Under the pieces are notes generated by a model, which searched no databases, was not told where the DNA came from, and saw only the letters and a program-made list of their open reading frames with translations. The translations under genes were made by a program, and so were the position numbers. A DNA stretch of 7,255 bases from Candidatus Sumerlaeota bacterium (GTDB taxonomy: Bacteria; CG03; SLGR01): positions 1-7,255 of the forward strand of contig SLGR01000158.1 of assembly GCA_007136585.1 (NCBI GenBank). The letters are read 5' to 3'. Below, piece by piece: positions 1-7,181 of this stretch; within the stretch, counting starts at the first letter, position 1; the number at the start of each line of letters is the position of its first letter.

Positions 1-1098
1 AAAAAGATGGATGAGCTCATACCCCTGGCTGAAAAATACGGTATGCCGTTTATAGGGTTATGCACAGACGAACGGGGCGTTGCCTCCACTCACGAACGGA
101 AACTTGAGATCGCGGAGAAGATAATAACCTACGCCGGGAAGCATATAGACGAAAACAAGGTGATTATCGACCCCGTGGTACTGGCGGTTTCTTCGGATAC
201 CGCTTCTGCTTCTCTCACACTCAAGGCCCTGGGAAAGCTTGGACGGAGGAGCCTTCTGGGTATATCAAACGTTTCATCGGGTATGCCCCAGCGGGCTCTC
301 CTTAACCAGGTCTTTGCCTCCCTGGCCGTGAAAGAGGGGGTTTCTGCCCTGATAGTGAACCCGCTTGACGCCGATCTTGTATACGCGGTCTATGCCGCGG
401 CACTGCTTTCGGGAAGAGACCCGGGGGGGAGGCGGTACCTTGATTTCTTTTCTCCGGGAGAAGAGGATTTCAAGTTCACAGATCCCCTCTCGCAGGCTCT
501 TATTGACGGGGATGCCGAAGCAGGGGTTTCGGAAGCCGAAAAACGTATCGCTGAAAAACAGGATCCCCTTGAGATAATAAACACCGCTGTTCTCCCCGCG
601 CTGGAAAAGGCGGGAGAGCTTTATGAACGCAGAGTTTACTTTCTTCCCCAGCTGATAAGCACCGCCAGGTGCGCGGAGAAGGTCCTGGGAGTACTTGAAA
701 GCAATATACCTCCGGAAACCCGGACCCCGGAGAAGAAGGTTCTTATAGCTACCGTTGAGGGGGATATACACGATATAGGCAAGAACCTGGTCGCGCTGAT
801 GCTCCGGAACCACTCATGCCGGGTTCTGGATCTCGGGGTAGATGTCCCGGCCGGGAAAATAATAGAGGAGGCCCGGAGGTTCGGGGCGGATCTCATCGCT
901 CTCTCGGCGCTTATGACCAACACTGCTTCAAGGATGGCTGAAACAGCCGCGCTTATAAAAAGCGGAAACCTTGATATACCGCTCCTTATAGGCGGCGCGG
1001 CGGTAACCGAAAAGTTCGCCTCCGGGATAGGGGCCCGGTACTCGCAAGATGCGGTAAGCGCCGTGAAGACGGCGGGAGAGATATTTTCCCAAAAATGA
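1..1098 (+). CDS. metH: Cobalamin-dependent methionine synthase (MetH), C-terminal part; 5' end outside window
   Basis: This is the methyl-carrying half of 5-methyltetrahydrofolate--homocysteine methyltransferase, which moves a methyl group from methyl-THF to cobalamin and then to homocysteine in the cytoplasm. The frame is open from base 1, so the ATG at 7 is very probably internal. Numbering from that Met, residues 1-150 are the end of a pterin-binding barrel, with NVSSGMPQR followed by IVNPLD, as in MetH. Residues about 159-235 are the helical B12 cap (YFLPQL). Residues 243-363 are the B12-binding Rossmann domain, with D253-I-H255-D-I-G258 (His255 is the lower cobalt ligand), S300 and the G329-G-A loop. 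The protein stops right after this domain, so the C-terminal AdoMet reactivation domain of E. coli MetH is absent. A homocysteine-binding N-terminal domain is expected upstream but cannot be seen. A corrinoid methyltransferase with another acceptor remains possible. The stop overlaps the next start (ATGA). Confidence 0.9.
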   Translation, partial: KKMDELIPLAEKYGMPFIGLCTDERGVASTHERKLEIAEKIITYAGKHIDENKVIIDPVVLAVSSDTASASLTLKALGKLGRRSLLGISNVSSGMPQRALLNQVFASLAVKEGVSALIVNPLDADLVYAVYAAALLSGRDPGGRRYLDFFSPGEEDFKFTDPLSQALIDGDAEAGVSEAEKRIAEKQDPLEIINTAVLPALEKAGELYERRVYFLPQLISTARCAEKVLGVLESNIPPETRTPEKKVLIATVEGDIHDIGKNLVALMLRNHSCRVLDLGVDVPAGKIIEEARRFGADLIALSALMTNTASRMAETAALIKSGNLDIPLLIGGAAVTEKFASGIGARYSQDAVSAVKTAGEIFSQK

Positions 1099-1718
1099 AG
1101 GAGCGGCTGCTAATTTTTATCCTGATATGCTATGTGCGTATTGTAGGGTGGACCTCAAAATCCCGTTATATGGGACAGGAGCTTCTCCCTCCCCCCCCAT
1201 TCATATACGCTTTCTGGCATAACAGGCTGATTTTTATGTCATACCTGCACCGGGGGCGGGGCATAAAGTCGCTTGTTTCAACTTCCAGGGACGGTGATGT
1301 TGCCTCAAAAGTGGCCGCCTCAATGGGGTACAGGATGATAAGGGGAACCGCCTCCGATCCCCGGAGCGGCACCCGTTCCTTCAGGAGTATGATAAGAAAC
1401 CTCCGGAAAGGGGCGGTTGTAGCCTTAACCCCGGACGGGCCCCGGGGCCCCTCCCGCAGGGTAAAGCCCGGAACGGCTTTCATAGCGCGGAGTTCGGGGT
1501 GCCCGGTTATTCCGCTATCGTGTTCCGTGAAGAGAAAAAAAGTTCTGAAAACCTGGGACAGGTTCCAACTGCCTCTTCCTTTTAATCGGGTTATAGCCGT
1601 TTCGGGCTCCCCCGTTTACATAGGAAAAAAAGAAGATATCCCCTCGGCCTGCCTGAGGATCGGGAAGGCTATTGAATCGGTAACCCTTAAGTCCGACGCT
1701 CTGGTCCGGGATCTGTGA
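1095..1718 (+). CDS. DUF374 lysophospholipid acyltransferase-like protein (LpxJ-type lipid A acyltransferase candidate)
   Basis: A 207-residue protein of the LPLAT superfamily, DUF374 branch. The N-terminus (residues 5-19) is hydrophobic and likely sits in the inner membrane. The family signature is complete: FWHNRL at 40-45 with His42, STSRDG at 62-67 with Asp66 (the expected His/Asp catalytic pair), RGT at 83-85 and TPDGPRGP at 112-119. DUF374 proteins such as H. pylori LpxJ are known as late (secondary) lipid A acyltransferases, and the position directly before waaA supports that role here; the exact acyl donor and position are inference. The ATG overlaps the metH stop by four bases and the gene ends in a GTGA overlap with waaA, so translational coupling is likely. 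No strong Shine-Dalgarno precedes the ATG. An eight-C run lies near the start of the gene and encodes part of a Pro32-Pro35 stretch. The length is normal for the family. Confidence 0.88.
   Translation: MKERLLIFILICYVRIVGWTSKSRYMGQELLPPPPFIYAFWHNRLIFMSYLHRGRGIKSLVSTSRDGDVASKVAASMGYRMIRGTASDPRSGTRSFRSMIRNLRKGAVVALTPDGPRGPSRRVKPGTAFIARSSGCPVIPLSCSVKRKKVLKTWDRFQLPLPFNRVIAVSGSPVYIGKKEDIPSACLRIGKAIESVTLKSDALVRDL
1191..1198 (+). repeat. Homopolymeric C8 tract inside the acyltransferase gene
   Basis: Eight consecutive C residues, preceded by CCT, encode part of Pro32-Pro35 of the DUF374 protein just before its FWHNRL motif. A one-base slip would frameshift the enzyme before all catalytic motifs. It is reported as a simple repeat; any phase-variation role is speculation, because runs of 7-8 identical bases occur elsewhere in the window. 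Confidence 0.6.
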
Positions 1719-2956
1719 TATACTTTTACCAGTTTCTCTATACCGCTTTTCTTGCGGCAGCCCTGCCCGCAGCGGCGGCCGGGGCGGCTCTTTCCCCTGT
1801 TTTTTCCAGGGGTATAAACGAGAGACTGGGTATATACCCGCGCAGAAGAGTTAAGCGGCTGAGATCAATGAGCTCCCCTCTCTGGGTCCACGCCGCCTCG
1901 GTGGGGGAGGTCAGGCTTCTCGGCGGAATCCCGGGGTTTCCTTCCGGGGATACCCTTATAACCTGCACTTCCGCGGCGGGGCGCGATACCGCAAGGAAAC
2001 TTTACCCGTCGGCTGTAACTCTCCTTATGCCCCTTGATATTATCTTTCTTCACAGGCGTCTTATCGGGCTGGCCTCCCCCCGGCGTCTTCTCATAATGGA
2101 GACGGAGCTCTGGCCGGCGATGGTAAGAGCTGCCCGGTCTATCCCGGTTGTTATCTTAAACGGCAGGCTCTCAGACAGCAGAATGAGGGTATACAGGCTG
2201 CTTAAAAAGCCCCTCTCAGATCTTCTCTCAGGGGTAGTGGAAGTCTACGCAAGCAGCCCGGAACACGGCGCGAGGTTCCGTGAGATAGGTATAGGGGCCC
2301 GGGTCCGGGTCCTTGGGGCCAACCTGAAGTTCAATTATACCCCGCCCCGCCCTGATCCTGAAGATCCCAGGTACTCCGGCGCCGGGGCCCGGGTCGTGGT
2401 ATGCGGTTCCACCCACACCGGGGAGGAAGAAATACTTGCGGATGTATTTATCAGGCTCCGCCGGAGGTTCCCCCGCGCCGCGCTTATATTATCCCCCAGG
2501 CGCCTCTCGCGTGTTGAGGAGGTTCTGGAGATGCTTCAAAAGAAAGGCCTTTCCGCTGAGCGCTGGAGCCTGAAAACAGATCCCGTGAAACCCTCCTCTG
2601 CCGTGGTCATTGATACCCTGGGAGAGCTGCCCGCGGTCTACTCGCTGGCCGAGGCCGCCTTCATAGGAGGTTCGCTTATCCCGCACGGAGGGCATAATAT
2701 GATAGAGGCGGCAGCCTCGGGCGTGCCGATCATTTCCGGGAAACATATTCAGAATTTTCGTCGGAGCGCCGGTTTTTTCATTGAGCGGGACGGCATGCGG
2801 CTGGTATCCGGACCCAAAGAGCTGTATAATGAGCTTAACGATATCTTTTCTGATCCCCGCCGGGGCGCGGAAGCCGGGGCGCGGAACCTGGAGGTTTTCC
2901 GGGAGAAGAAAGAGATACTTATAAGGACCATAAAGGAGGCGACGGCGCCGGTATGA
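1715..2956 (+). CDS. waaA: 3-deoxy-D-manno-octulosonic acid (Kdo) transferase WaaA/KdtA
   Basis: A GT30 enzyme that transfers Kdo from CMP-Kdo to the lipid A precursor at the inner face of the cytoplasmic membrane. Residues 1-30 form a hydrophobic membrane anchor. The segment NERLG (35-39) carries the conserved Glu36 that matches the proposed catalytic base of the family. It is followed by WVHAASVGE (57-65), ETELWP (129-134), and the C-terminal donor-site motif GGS-x3-HGGHN (318-328) with the downstream Glu331. At 413 residues the length is typical. The start is a GTG whose last two bases belong to the TGA of the preceding gene (GTGA); no in-frame ATG precedes the conserved region apart from Met52, which would remove the anchor and Glu36. 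The gene ends in an ATGA overlap with the channel gene. Whether it adds one, two or more Kdo residues cannot be told from sequence. Confidence 0.95.
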   Translation: MIYFYQFLYTAFLAAALPAAAAGAALSPVFSRGINERLGIYPRRRVKRLRSMSSPLWVHAASVGEVRLLGGIPGFPSGDTLITCTSAAGRDTARKLYPSAVTLLMPLDIIFLHRRLIGLASPRRLLIMETELWPAMVRAARSIPVVILNGRLSDSRMRVYRLLKKPLSDLLSGVVEVYASSPEHGARFREIGIGARVRVLGANLKFNYTPPRPDPEDPRYSGAGARVVVCGSTHTGEEEILADVFIRLRRRFPRAALILSPRRLSRVEEVLEMLQKKGLSAERWSLKTDPVKPSSAVVIDTLGELPAVYSLAEAAFIGGSLIPHGGHNMIEAAASGVPIISGKHIQNFRRSAGFFIERDGMRLVSGPKELYNELNDIFSDPRRGAEAGARNLEVFREKKEILIRTIKEATAPV

Positions 2957-3957
2957 TATTTAAAAGGGTTTTAATAGTTATTCTTATGCTTACGGCTGTG
3001 CTATTAGCAGGCGCTGCCGGTTATATAATCCTGGAGAACTGGGATTTCATAGATGCGGTATATATGAGTGTTATAACACTCTCTACCGTAGGGTACAAGG
3101 AAGTCGCGGAACTCTCAACGGCGGGGAAGGCTTTTACCATAGCCCTTATAGGGGGCGGGGTAATAGCCGTTACCCTTGCGATCGGAATGTTTACGAAGAT
3201 AATACTTGAGGGGGAACTGGGAGAATACCTCAGGAGGAGACAGATGGAGAAAAGAATAGAGTCGCTTGACGAACATATAATAGTATGCGGACTGGGTGAG
3301 CTTGGCGAGGAGGTAGTGCGAAACCTGGCCGAGGACGGCGAGGATTTTGTCGTGATTGAAAACTCTGAAGAAGCCATAGGAAAGGCGGAGAAATTCGTGG
3401 GGGATCACCCCAGTATCAGGGGTGATGCCAGGGAGACCGAGGTTCTTGAGAGCGCGGGGATATCAAAGGCCAGGGCCCTCATAACCTGCCTGGGCTCGGA
3501 TAGTCAGAACCTTTTCGTGGTTATAACCGCCAGGGAACTCAACCCCTCCCTGACCATAGTCACCGAAGCCATTGACCATAACGTCCGGGAGAAACTCCGC
3601 CGGGCGGGAGCAGATCATATAATAGCGCCTACCCAGATAGGGGGCTTAAGGATGTCCAGGGTGGCGACCAAACCTGCCGTAGTATCTTTCCTTGATGTCG
3701 TTACGGGCGGCCCCGGAGGCCGGGAGTTGTATATGGAGTCCGTCCGGGTTATGGAAAACTCCGAGGTGGCCTCCAGAACCCTTGCCGAGGCCAGGATACC
3801 CAGTAAGACGGGACTCATAGTTCTCTCTATAAGGAAAAAACAGATCGGACAGTTCATTTACAACCCCTCCTCCCAGACGGTTCTTGAACCCGGGGATGAG
3901 CTGATAGTGATGGGGGAGGACGAGAGCCTTCGTAAACTCAGGAAATACATATCCTGA
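2953..3957 (+). CDS. Two-TM potassium channel subunit with RCK (TrkA-N/TrkA-C) domain
   Basis: A 334-residue inner-membrane K+ channel subunit of the MthK/GsuK general type. Residues 4-27 are TM1, 33-44 the pore helix, 45-48 the filter TVGY, and about 58-84 TM2. A basic linker (RRRQMEKR, 94-101) leads into a Rossmann RCK domain with G113-L-G115-E-L-G118 and an acidic residue (Glu136) at the end of the second strand, which favours NAD(H)-type dinucleotide binding. The C-terminal TrkA-C subdomain ends with LEPGDELIVMG. Two oddities: the last Gly of the canonical TVGYG filter is Lys49, and an internal Met98 with a strong Shine-Dalgarno lies at the TM2/RCK boundary. The start ATG overlaps the waaA stop; AAAGGAGG ends 13 bases upstream, a rather long spacing. 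The place between waaA and heptosyltransferases is unusual. K+ selectivity is inferred from the filter; the ligand is unknown. Confidence 0.92.
   Translation: MIFKRVLIVILMLTAVLLAGAAGYIILENWDFIDAVYMSVITLSTVGYKEVAELSTAGKAFTIALIGGGVIAVTLAIGMFTKIILEGELGEYLRRRQMEKRIESLDEHIIVCGLGELGEEVVRNLAEDGEDFVVIENSEEAIGKAEKFVGDHPSIRGDARETEVLESAGISKARALITCLGSDSQNLFVVITARELNPSLTIVTEAIDHNVREKLRRAGADHIIAPTQIGGLRMSRVATKPAVVSFLDVVTGGPGGRELYMESVRVMENSEVASRTLAEARIPSKTGLIVLSIRKKQIGQFIYNPSSQTVLEPGDELIVMGEDESLRKLRKYIS
3232..3246 (+). promoter_or_regulatory. Internal Shine-Dalgarno and ATG within the channel gene
   Basis: AGGAGG at 3232-3237 is followed six bases later by an in-frame ATG at 3244 (Met98). It is the best-spaced ribosome binding site in the operon and better than the one at the annotated start of the same gene. 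Initiation here would give a soluble RCK protein of about 237 residues, starting roughly ten residues before the first Rossmann strand. In MthK an internal Met at the equivalent place is known to yield separate RCK subunits. The caveat is that AGG-AGG-AGA also simply encodes three Arg, and AGG is a common Arg codon here. Confidence 0.5.
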
Positions 3958-3968
3958 AGAACCGGAAA

Positions 3969-4931
3969 ATGAGAGTTATACTGATAAGATATTCCTCACT
4001 TGGCGACGTGGTCCTGGTAACTTCAGTTGCAAGAAGCATAAAAACGGCCTACCCCGAAGCCGAGGTTGATATACTTACAAAAGAGGAGTATTTCCCTGTA
4101 TTTTCTCATAACCCGGATATAGGAAGGGTTCTCAGCCGCCCCCCGTTCAGGGAGAGGTACGATTATATGGCCGATCTCCACTCAAGTATCAGGTCCGCTC
4201 TTTCCCGGAGACTTATCCGGGCCGGGCGGAAAATGGTATATAACAAGGCCGCGACTGCAAGGCGGGTCTTTCTTCACTCGGGTATGATGCAGGGAACCCT
4301 GGAGAAAACCGTTCCGGAGAGATATATTGAGCCTTTTATTCAGGCGGGTTTGAAAGTAACCCTCTCAAAGCCCCGGATAGAGGTTTCTCCCCGGGAGGAG
4401 GAAGAGGCCTCGCGCCTTGCCTGTCCCGGCCCGTACCTTGCACTTGTGCCGGGAGCCAAGTGGATGACAAAAGAGTGGTTCCAGGAAAAGTACGTTCAGC
4501 TTATTATAAAAGCCTCCCGGGAGCTTGGGCTTAATACGGTGATTCTGGGAACGGAAGAGGAGAAGAAGCTTTCGGATTCCATAGTTGCGGGCACGGGAAC
4601 CTTCAGGAGCCACGTTATAAACCTTGCCGGAAAAACGGATATACGCTTATTTGCCGCGCTGATTAAAGGGGCCGCAGCCGCGGTTACACCTGATTCGGCG
4701 GCTCTTCACATAGGGTGGGGATTATCTGTCCCTGTTGTGGCCTTATTCGGACCCACGGTAAAAGAGTTCGGGTTTCAGCCGGATGACGAAAAGGTAGCGA
4801 TACTTGAGAAGGACCTTGAATGCCGCCCCTGCAGTCTGCACGGTTCGGCAAAATGCCGGTACACCGACAGGGCCTGTATGCAGAGGATAGAGGTTCATGA
4901 GGTGATAGATGCCCTCCGGGGATTCCTGTAA
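3969..4931 (+). CDS. Glycosyltransferase family 9, LPS heptosyltransferase-like (first copy)
   Basis: A 320-residue cytoplasmic GT-B enzyme that should transfer heptose or a related sugar from an ADP-sugar to the Kdo-lipid A core. The N-terminal acceptor-side domain shows YSSLGD with the catalytic-position Asp13, then DLHSSIRS and a Lys/Arg-rich K-x4-RR stretch typical of GT9. The nucleotide-sugar domain shows PGAKWMTKEW (161-170), DSAALH (242-247; the usual DSG-x2-H has Ala at the Gly position) and FGPT (260-263). Near the C-terminus Cys285, Cys288, Cys296 and Cys303 form a C-x2-C-x7-C-x6-C cluster. The ATG lies 11 bases after the channel stop with only a weak ribosome binding site, which suggests coupling. 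It follows waaA in pathway order, fitting heptosyltransferase I or II, but I cannot assign which, nor exclude another sugar donor. Confidence 0.9.
   Translation: MRVILIRYSSLGDVVLVTSVARSIKTAYPEAEVDILTKEEYFPVFSHNPDIGRVLSRPPFRERYDYMADLHSSIRSALSRRLIRAGRKMVYNKAATARRVFLHSGMMQGTLEKTVPERYIEPFIQAGLKVTLSKPRIEVSPREEEEASRLACPGPYLALVPGAKWMTKEWFQEKYVQLIIKASRELGLNTVILGTEEEKKLSDSIVAGTGTFRSHVINLAGKTDIRLFAALIKGAAAAVTPDSAALHIGWGLSVPVVALFGPTVKEFGFQPDDEKVAILEKDLECRPCSLHGSAKCRYTDRACMQRIEVHEVIDALRGFL
4899..4905 (+). promoter_or_regulatory. Shine-Dalgarno for the second GT9 gene
   Basis: GAGGTGA, a seven-base match to the anti-Shine-Dalgarno, lies inside the end of the first GT9 gene; its GAGG core ends six bases before the ATG at 4909. 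It decides the start: no other ATG, GTG or TTG occurs in this frame before the conserved YLGD motif. Confidence 0.7.
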
Positions 4932-5895
4932 CTCTCTAATAATACAGACAGCCTACCTGGGCGACGCGGTTCTTACCCTTCCCCTGGTCTCGGCGCTTAA
5001 ATCCGCCGGTCACCGGGTAAGTATTCTCTGCCGCCCCGAGTTCTCCGGGATATTTGAGGACTGCCCCGATGCGGACAGGGTCCTGGTCTACAATAAAAAG
5101 AGAACCCGGAACCCGGGGGAAAGAAGCCTGATCAGACTTGTCTTAACCCTTAAGAAGGAGAAATTCACTCACGTTTTTCTCCCCCAGAGGTCCTTCAGGA
5201 GCGGCCTTGCGGCGTTTCTTGCCCGTATCCCGGTGAGATCCGGGTTTACCAGGGGCGGGGGCCGGTTTTTTATTAACCGTAAAACCGTATATGACTGGGG
5301 GACCCACGAGGTTCTGCGGATTCTATCGCTGGCCGAGGCTGCGGGGATAGAGTCCGGAGCTCCCCGTTTCAGCCTTCGTCCCCGCCCTGAACTAGTACGG
5401 AAGTACCGCGGTATTTTCGGAAATGCTGAACACCTGGTTGGGTTTGCTCCGGGTAGCAACTGGCCTACCAAGAGGTGGCCGGCGGAGAGGTTTTCGGAGA
5501 CGGCCGGGCGGATTCCGGAGGGTGTAAGAGCGGTTTTCCTCGGAAAGGAGCCCGCGGAAGGTGTTCCTCCCGGCGCCGTTGACCTTACCGGGAAAACCTC
5601 TGTAAGGGAACTTACGGCAGCTGTCAGCCTCCTTGACCTGCTTGTCTCAAACGATTCCGGGATAATTCACGTGGCCGCGGCCCTAGGGGTGAGGGTCTGC
5701 GCTGTATTCGGCCCTACGGTTCCGGGGATGGGGTTCTCTCCATACGGGGACGGGCATATCCTTATTGAAAATAGAGGATTAGAGTGCCGTCCGTGCGGTC
5801 TGCACGGCCCCCGCCGGTGCCCCGAAAAACATTTCAGGTGTATGAAGGATATTCCCGCCGAAAGAGTTCTTGAGAAAATACTGAAACTATTGTAG
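4909..5895 (+). CDS. Glycosyltransferase family 9, LPS heptosyltransferase II-like (second copy)
   Basis: A 328-residue GT-B glycosyltransferase, homologous to but clearly diverged from the gene before it. It shows YLGDAVLTLP with Asp19 in the catalytic position, a SFRSGLAA segment typical of WaaF-type enzymes, PGSNWPTKRW (181-190), the canonical DSGIIH (249-254) and FGPT (267-270). The C-terminal Cys293, Cys296, Cys304 and Cys311 repeat the exact C-x2-C-x7-C-x6-C spacing of its neighbour. It would add the second heptose (WaaF-like) or another core sugar using an ADP-activated donor. The start at 4909 overlaps the previous gene by 23 bases and gives an eight- to nine-residue extension (MPSGDSCNS) ahead of the usual first strand; it is supported by GAGGTGA upstream. 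WaaF assignment is a resemblance only, since GT9 subfamilies are hard to separate by eye. Confidence 0.9.
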   Translation: MPSGDSCNSLIIQTAYLGDAVLTLPLVSALKSAGHRVSILCRPEFSGIFEDCPDADRVLVYNKKRTRNPGERSLIRLVLTLKKEKFTHVFLPQRSFRSGLAAFLARIPVRSGFTRGGGRFFINRKTVYDWGTHEVLRILSLAEAAGIESGAPRFSLRPRPELVRKYRGIFGNAEHLVGFAPGSNWPTKRWPAERFSETAGRIPEGVRAVFLGKEPAEGVPPGAVDLTGKTSVRELTAAVSLLDLLVSNDSGIIHVAAALGVRVCAVFGPTVPGMGFSPYGDGHILIENRGLECRPCGLHGPRRCPEKHFRCMKDIPAERVLEKILKLL

Positions 5896-5921
5896 AGTTA
5901 TCCCGGAGAACCAACTCAATT

Positions 5922-7181
5922 ATGATAAGTTTGAGGAAAAACAGAGAAAGAAAAGGGATGCGAAAAAAAGCAGTGCCGAAACTCAGCCTTGTGACGGATT
6001 TTCTTATATACGGGGGGATACTTCTTCATATAACCATGCTGATCCCTTCCCCCGTGGGCTCGGGAGGTCAGGATATAGGCATATACCTTGCCTTTATCCT
6101 TATAGCTGCTACCAGAAAAACGGATTACAGGGATATTTTTTTCAACCGTCTTTCTGCGGTTTACCTCACTTATATGTTATTTCTTTCCCTATCAACCCTC
6201 CTGGCCCTGGAACTCTCAGAGGCGCTGGTGATACTTACCCGTGGAATATCCAGGTCAACGGCCCTCTTTTTTGTAATACAGATCTTATGCAAGAGCCGTT
6301 TGAGGAGGGATAATATCTTTGCCCTCTCGCTTTTTCCGTTTTTCCTGGCATACCTTTCCGCCACCGCGTACCTGCCCCCTCTTTTTGGGGTGGATTACGG
6401 GTTTGAAGGGCTAAAATCACTGGGTCTATGGCATAACAGGACAGCGCTGTACCTGAATATCGTCCTTCCGGTCTCAGTTCTTAACTTTACCCTTTTAAAA
6501 AATAAAGCGCTTAAAATAACTCTAGGGCTGTTTATACTTCTGGGCGCTGCGGCGGTTCCGCTTACCCTCTCCCGCGGCGGTATAATATCGTTTGTTCTTC
6601 TGGCGGTGATGCTGACTGCGGGTTTTTCTTTCACAGGCCCCGGGGCGCTGAAAAGATACCGCGCGGCGGCGTATATTCTTTTAGGTGCGGCGGTTATAAG
6701 CGGTATACTCTTTTTTCCTAGAATAATCCACAGATTTGAAACCACGGAATGGGATACGTTTACCGGACGCAGTGATACGATATGGCCCGCCGCAATAGAT
6801 GCATTCCGGCGCCGCCCCTTTCTGGGGTACGGGGTTCAGCGACTCTATAACGTGACTGATATCATAAACCCCCATACTCACAATATTTTTCTACAGGCGC
6901 TATTTGAGGGCGGGGTAGCGGGAACTCTTATTTATATTCTGATGCTTATCCTCTTTCTTAAGAGAGCTTTTACTCAGGTAAGGGCGGAGAAATCCACTTT
7001 TTACGGGCTCTCGTTTATATGCGTTTTTTTTGCGGTACTCCTTCTTCACGGTATGATAGAGGTTGTCAGACTGCGCTCACTGGCCTTTTTTCTCTCTTCA
7101 ATATGGTTTTACGATGCGTACCAGAACTTAAAAAAACCGGGTTCAGGCGGGTCCCCGAAACCCTTGCCTCAGGGGAACTGA
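5922..7181 (+). CDS. O-antigen ligase family membrane protein (WaaL/Wzy_C)
   Basis: A 419-residue polytopic inner-membrane protein with roughly ten or more hydrophobic segments from residue 24 to the low 400s, a basic N-terminus and a short Gly/Pro-rich tail. The Wzy_C signature is present: LSRGG at 216-220 with Arg218 at the start of a transmembrane segment, a large loop with FTGRSD and RRRPFLGYG, then HTHNIFLQ with His318/His320 followed by EGG-x2-G. In WaaL, a conserved Arg and His of these regions are needed for joining undecaprenyl-linked glycan to lipid A-core on the periplasmic side. Its position after core glycosyltransferases favours WaaL, but the same fold includes Wzy polymerases and sequence alone does not separate them. 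The chosen ATG is 26 bases after the previous stop with GGAG 13 bases upstream; an in-frame ATG at 5958 (residue 13) is an alternative start. Confidence 0.86.
   Translation: MISLRKNRERKGMRKKAVPKLSLVTDFLIYGGILLHITMLIPSPVGSGGQDIGIYLAFILIAATRKTDYRDIFFNRLSAVYLTYMLFLSLSTLLALELSEALVILTRGISRSTALFFVIQILCKSRLRRDNIFALSLFPFFLAYLSATAYLPPLFGVDYGFEGLKSLGLWHNRTALYLNIVLPVSVLNFTLLKNKALKITLGLFILLGAAAVPLTLSRGGIISFVLLAVMLTAGFSFTGPGALKRYRAAAYILLGAAVISGILFFPRIIHRFETTEWDTFTGRSDTIWPAAIDAFRRRPFLGYGVQRLYNVTDIINPHTHNIFLQALFEGGVAGTLIYILMLILFLKRAFTQVRAEKSTFYGLSFICVFFAVLLLHGMIEVVRLRSLAFFLSSIWFYDAYQNLKKPGSGGSPKPLPQGN

Follow-up and report, generated by a model that had tools for sequence, protein, structure and literature searches.

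The potassium channel gene in the window (the whole stretch of DNA that was analysed, 7,255 nucleotides) very probably makes a free RCK subunit of ~26 kDa by internal initiation, as judged from a comparison of homologous sequences. The comparison indicates that, across bacteria, selection maintains the site at Met98 as a translation start, and the proposal of the earlier note that one gene encodes both a channel and a free RCK subunit is strongly supported at the sequence level by Shine-Dalgarno (SD) and start-codon tests on 123 homologues. Two products are, with high likelihood, read from one frame, namely a pore subunit and a free RCK subunit that would complete the ring as in MthK.

The window is an LPS-core gene cluster that encodes a B12-binding protein, a DUF374 protein, kdtA/waaA, the channel, two heptosyltransferases, and an O-antigen ligase; the channel gene sits inside this LPS core/O-antigen cluster (window 7-7181) and overlaps kdtA/waaA through the sequence ATGA. 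The full-length channel subunit (2953-3957, + strand, as are all features below) comprises 334 residues with a 2TM pore and a single RCK, as assigned from the ORF, the domain search, and the nearest solved relatives. The 2TM pore is confirmed by the Pfam domain Ion_trans_2 (residues 12-84, 2986-3204; E 2e-15), and the selectivity filter TVGYKE (3085-3102) is a variant of TVGYGD in which the fifth position is non-canonical. One RCK is present per chain, with a single TrkA_N N-lobe (residues 109-226, 3277-3630) that carries the nucleotide-binding motif GLGELG and a single TrkA_C C-lobe (residues 262-333, 3736-3951), both identified by Pfam. The best solved relatives are MthK (phmmer E 5e-31) and GsuK. 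A related-locus search of the contigs of this genome returned one distant locus only. A second 2TM-RCK channel in the same genome (L165, G000:C105) is 40% identical, and its linker also contains AAGGAGAAGGAAAATG. Only 58 of the 123 homologues have Gly at the fifth filter position, where Arg, Lys, Glu, Ser, Met, and Gln are also common, and the residue after it is mostly Glu in place of the usual Asp; such variation is unusual for a K+ channel family.

The internal site consists of the SD sequence AGGAGG (3232-3237), the spacer AGACAG (3238-3243), and the in-frame ATG of codon 98 (3244-3246), exactly as described in the earlier note, and the position claimed for Met98 between TM2 and the first RCK strand agrees with the Pfam boundaries of the pore and TrkA_N domains. 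The product predicted from this start contains 237 residues (3244-3957) and retains both RCK lobes. The internal site is indeed better spaced than that of the gene start (2935-2956), where GGAGG (2935-2939) lies 13 bases from the ATG at 2953, and the anti-SD duplex energies in the usual window are -10.3 kcal/mol for the internal site and -3.4 kcal/mol for the gene start. Genome-wide, AGGAGG-N6-ATG occurs 31 times, compared with 25 times for a reversed control pattern, and a second + strand copy of AGGAGG is present in the window at 2517, with N8 spacing before an ATG. The anti-SD pattern was not found in the incomplete assembly G000 and is present once in G001 of the same family. The motif in one genome is thus not significant, and the observation is weak if taken alone. 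The genome-wide count is a point in favor of an explanation by chance, in which the protein conserves Arg-Arg-X-Met and Arg is commonly encoded by AGG. Because the motif is not enriched in a single genome, its significance comes only from the comparison of relatives.

Homologues were searched for in 386 genomes, with ~11 kb fetched around most matches, and the resulting alignment contains 123 proteins from 119 genomes and 83 GTDB families. For each of the 322 columns, the anti-SD duplex energy of bases -16 to -5 was compared with that of synonymous draws, in which the codon usage was taken from the genes flanking each homologue. Column 98 ranks first of the 322, with a mean energy of -7.3 kcal/mol observed against -2.9 kcal/mol expected (z=-20.8); columns 97-101 alone approach it, their windows overlapping the same bases, and the next column is at -4.6. 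Permutation of synonymous codons within each gene gives a z of -18.7 for column 98, with a standard deviation of 1.4 for the other columns. The signal persists upon thinning of the alignment to less than 60, 50, 45, and 40% identity (z from -15.6 to -8.0, the latter with n=32 at <40%), and is found both without the phylum of the window (z=-18.1) and in the 16 sequences of that phylum alone (z=-8.1). A strong SD with an ATG, GTG, or TTG start near column 98 is present in 105 of the 123 homologues, mostly as GGAGG-N6, and in approximately 18 a strong site or a start is missing. ATA replaces the ATG in a single homologue, that of G007, whose gene (L168, ~4960-5770) is broken by an in-frame TAG and has no usable start; the neighbours of this broken copy are similar to those in the window.

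The question raised in the earlier note of whether AGGAGG-N6-ATG is kept in homologues has a divided answer: the hexamer itself varies (CGGAGG, GGGAGG, TGGAGG, AAGAGG, and AGGAGA), and the SD core, the spacing, and the start codon are kept far beyond the expectation from codon usage. Within the order of the window, the hexamer also varies (CGGAGG, AACAGGAG), with a GGAGG or AGGAG core staying just 5' of the ATG. CGN codons in homologues, which the earlier note had regarded as evidence against an internal start, do encode the first Arg in some of them; before AGG this codon is mostly CGG, which preserves GGAGG. The codon preceding AGG most often specifies Arg (AGG 27, CGG 9), Gly (GGG 22), Lys (AAG 10), or Trp (TGG 6), and for Arg-Arg and Gly-Arg pairs NGG-AGG is used in 39% of cases in the linker versus 3.6% in neighbouring genes. 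The residue before AGG therefore varies and its codon mostly ends in SD bases, which indicates that the SD is kept while the amino acid changes. This conservation across different amino acids, together with the synonymous-codon nulls and the dipeptide control from the flanking genes, leads to rejection of the chance explanation, which is considered exceedingly improbable.

The codons at column 98 itself also bear on initiation. Met occupies this column in 81 of the homologues; where Val is present, it is encoded by GTG in 14 of 15 cases (4.9 expected), and Leu is encoded by TTG in 7 of 12 (1.4 expected). Taken together, GTG or TTG is used in 21 of 27 sequences versus 6.3 expected (joint P=2.7e-10), which is the first rank among the columns, the next having a P of 0.002. 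Protein function gives no reason for such a choice among synonyms, whereas a start codon requires it, so the bias fits a start codon. For 20 homologues, the best start is displaced from column 98 by 1-4 codons, and the SD is found correspondingly upstream of the shifted start. Additionally, the mRNA from -12 to +24 at column 98 is less structured than the synonymous null (z=+5.7), with a mean z of -2.1 and a maximum of 2.7 for the other sampled columns.

Pausing of ribosomes at SD-like sequences behind membrane segments has been put forward in earlier work, and the site is located just after TM2 in a membrane-protein gene. Both points are in favor of a ribosome pause that would allow insertion of the two TM helices before the RCK domain is made, with Met98 being incidental. 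A pause needs no start codon, however, yet Val and Leu are encoded by GTG and TTG; shifted sites retain the spacing between SD and start, and the mRNA is open, as it is at starts. Moreover, the nine dual-RCK channels analysed, which possess the same kind of membrane part, lack the site (see below). Pausing is accordingly regarded as quite improbable, and selection for an internal translation start is the preferred reading.

Other channel types were analysed by alignment-based tests of the control families and their start-codon counts. The Slo-like single-RCK family (PF22614; 400 residues, 2TM; L197-L226) was chosen as a negative control and proved positive, and its role was reassigned after the data had been seen. 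Like the channel of the window, Slo-like channels have two TM segments, one RCK, and an internal SD and start in the linker, but their RCK is of another family and the start is usually TTG, which is read as Leu in the long protein. The linker column contains 17 TTG, 4 GTG, and 3 ATG codons in 30 sequences; TTG or GTG encodes 21 of 26 Leu/Val residues versus 4.3 expected (P=2.6e-13), and the SD column is at the top of 378. GsuK and the other dual-RCK channels have pore and RCK domains related to those of the window channel, but they contain two RCKs per chain rather than one. In the small set of nine dual-RCK channels, no internal SD or start is found at the equivalent place in the linker (z near 0), whereas nine sequences taken at random from the first family give a z below -3.9 in each of 30 draws. 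A dual-RCK chain already supplies eight RCKs per tetramer, so a free RCK subunit is not needed. A Kef-like control shows no signal among its approximately 6-11 true relatives, and this result carries little weight. E. coli Kch resembles the window channel in being a K+ channel with a C-terminal RCK and a linker Met (Met240), but differs in that Met240 is preceded only by a weak, badly spaced AAAGGA located 12 bases upstream (in-window energy -3.8).

These results bear on a dispute in the literature. Roosild et al. (2009) reported that Kch-type linkers invariably contain a Met and that Kef linkers do not, and argued against a general octamer by citing E. coli Kch (PMC2920069); in the E. coli Kch work of Kuo (2003), as cited in PMC2920069, removal of the internal Met reportedly left expression and function unaltered. 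Kong et al. (2012), in contrast, stated that most single-RCK channels have internal starts, for which dual-RCK channels have no need (PMC3510474). The lack of a good SD in E. coli Kch suggests why the Kch experiment was negative.

The closest precedent is MthK, in which an internal start at Met107 gives a soluble RCK that completes the octameric ring (PMC9440719, PMC2573919, PMC3510474), so that each tetramer carries eight RCKs, four tethered and four free (PMC9440719; PMC3510474). MthK and the window channel share the architecture of a 2TM pore and one RCK, and in both the internal Met is separated by exactly 10 residues from the His aligned in the first RCK strand (Met107 to H117 and Met98 to H108). 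The placement of an internal start at the same point in MthK by the earlier note agrees with this, but its statement that Gln also precedes that Met does not hold: Gln precedes Met104 (REQM104), and Leu precedes Met107 (KLM107), in contrast to the Gln before the internal Met of the window channel. The window channel is further distinguished by its bacterial rather than archaeal origin, its TVGYKE filter, and a distant sequence relationship (the E-value given above). A comparison of the RCK domains reveals an additional difference at the Ca2+ site of MthK, which is formed by D184, E210, and E212: the aligned residues of the window channel are C179, E205, and I207, so that two of the three Ca2+ residues are not conserved, whereas the nucleotide motif GLGELG is kept. 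Because the GxGxxG motif is kept and two of the three Ca2+ residues are replaced, the ligand of this channel is probably a nucleotide rather than Ca2+.

The two starts would be used in different ways. The ATG at 2953 shares bases with the TGA that ends kdtA/waaA just upstream (ATGA, 2953-2956), so translation from the main start is probably coupled to that gene and would not require a separate SD. Little or no SD is present at the usual spacing of the main start in the order of the window, being weak in four relatives (L154-L157), unlike the internal start, which has a strong SD in this order. The balance of the products is thus probably set by coupling versus direct recruitment, and since the internal SD is much stronger, more free RCK than full-length subunit may be produced. 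Ribosomes starting at 2953, probably through coupling, would yield the full pore subunit, and those recruited independently to the SD at 3232-3237 would start at Met98 and yield the soluble RCK, which we infer to be made in this organism. An eight-RCK gating ring would then most likely be built from four of the pore subunits and four of the free RCKs, as in MthK.

Both the octameric ring and the role of the free RCK in completing it are suggested by the analogy with MthK, and the ring also by the contrast between single- and dual-RCK channels. Because the ring role is transferred from MthK, because the need for octamers has been contested by some authors on functional grounds (PMC2920069), and because a main start almost without an SD in the order of the window could leave the free RCK in excess, the free RCK might instead be made for another purpose, such as the control of other K+ transporters or the adjustment of channel number. 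The signal is found, however, in single-RCK channels of two families and not in dual-RCK channels, as ring completion predicts, and a role outside the ring is considered unlikely. Completion of the gating ring is the preferred reading of the function of the free subunit.

The principle is known from MthK, and the gene in the window adds a case. The literature search found no paper that tests the internal start at the nucleotide level or reports GTG or TTG starts; as far as was searched, the conserved nucleotide signature, the GTG and TTG starts, and the contrast between single- and dual-RCK channels constitute new evidence. The generality of the MthK arrangement is disputed, in that E. coli Kch can do without its internal Met and the general relevance of the octamer has been questioned, and the general signature lends new support to the disputed generalisation. 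It is likely that internal initiation is the general source of the second RCK layer in single-RCK bacterial channels, marked in two or more distinct families by an SD with ATG, GTG, or TTG and missing from channels that have two RCKs in one chain, with the free RCK possibly the more abundant product in the order of the window. The comparative signature makes it possible to test from sequence whether a channel makes a free RCK, and it covers GTG and TTG starts that are invisible to a search for Met. For channels of this type, the production of two parts from one gene looks to be the rule, and half of the complex is probably overlooked when such a gene is cloned or annotated as encoding a single protein.
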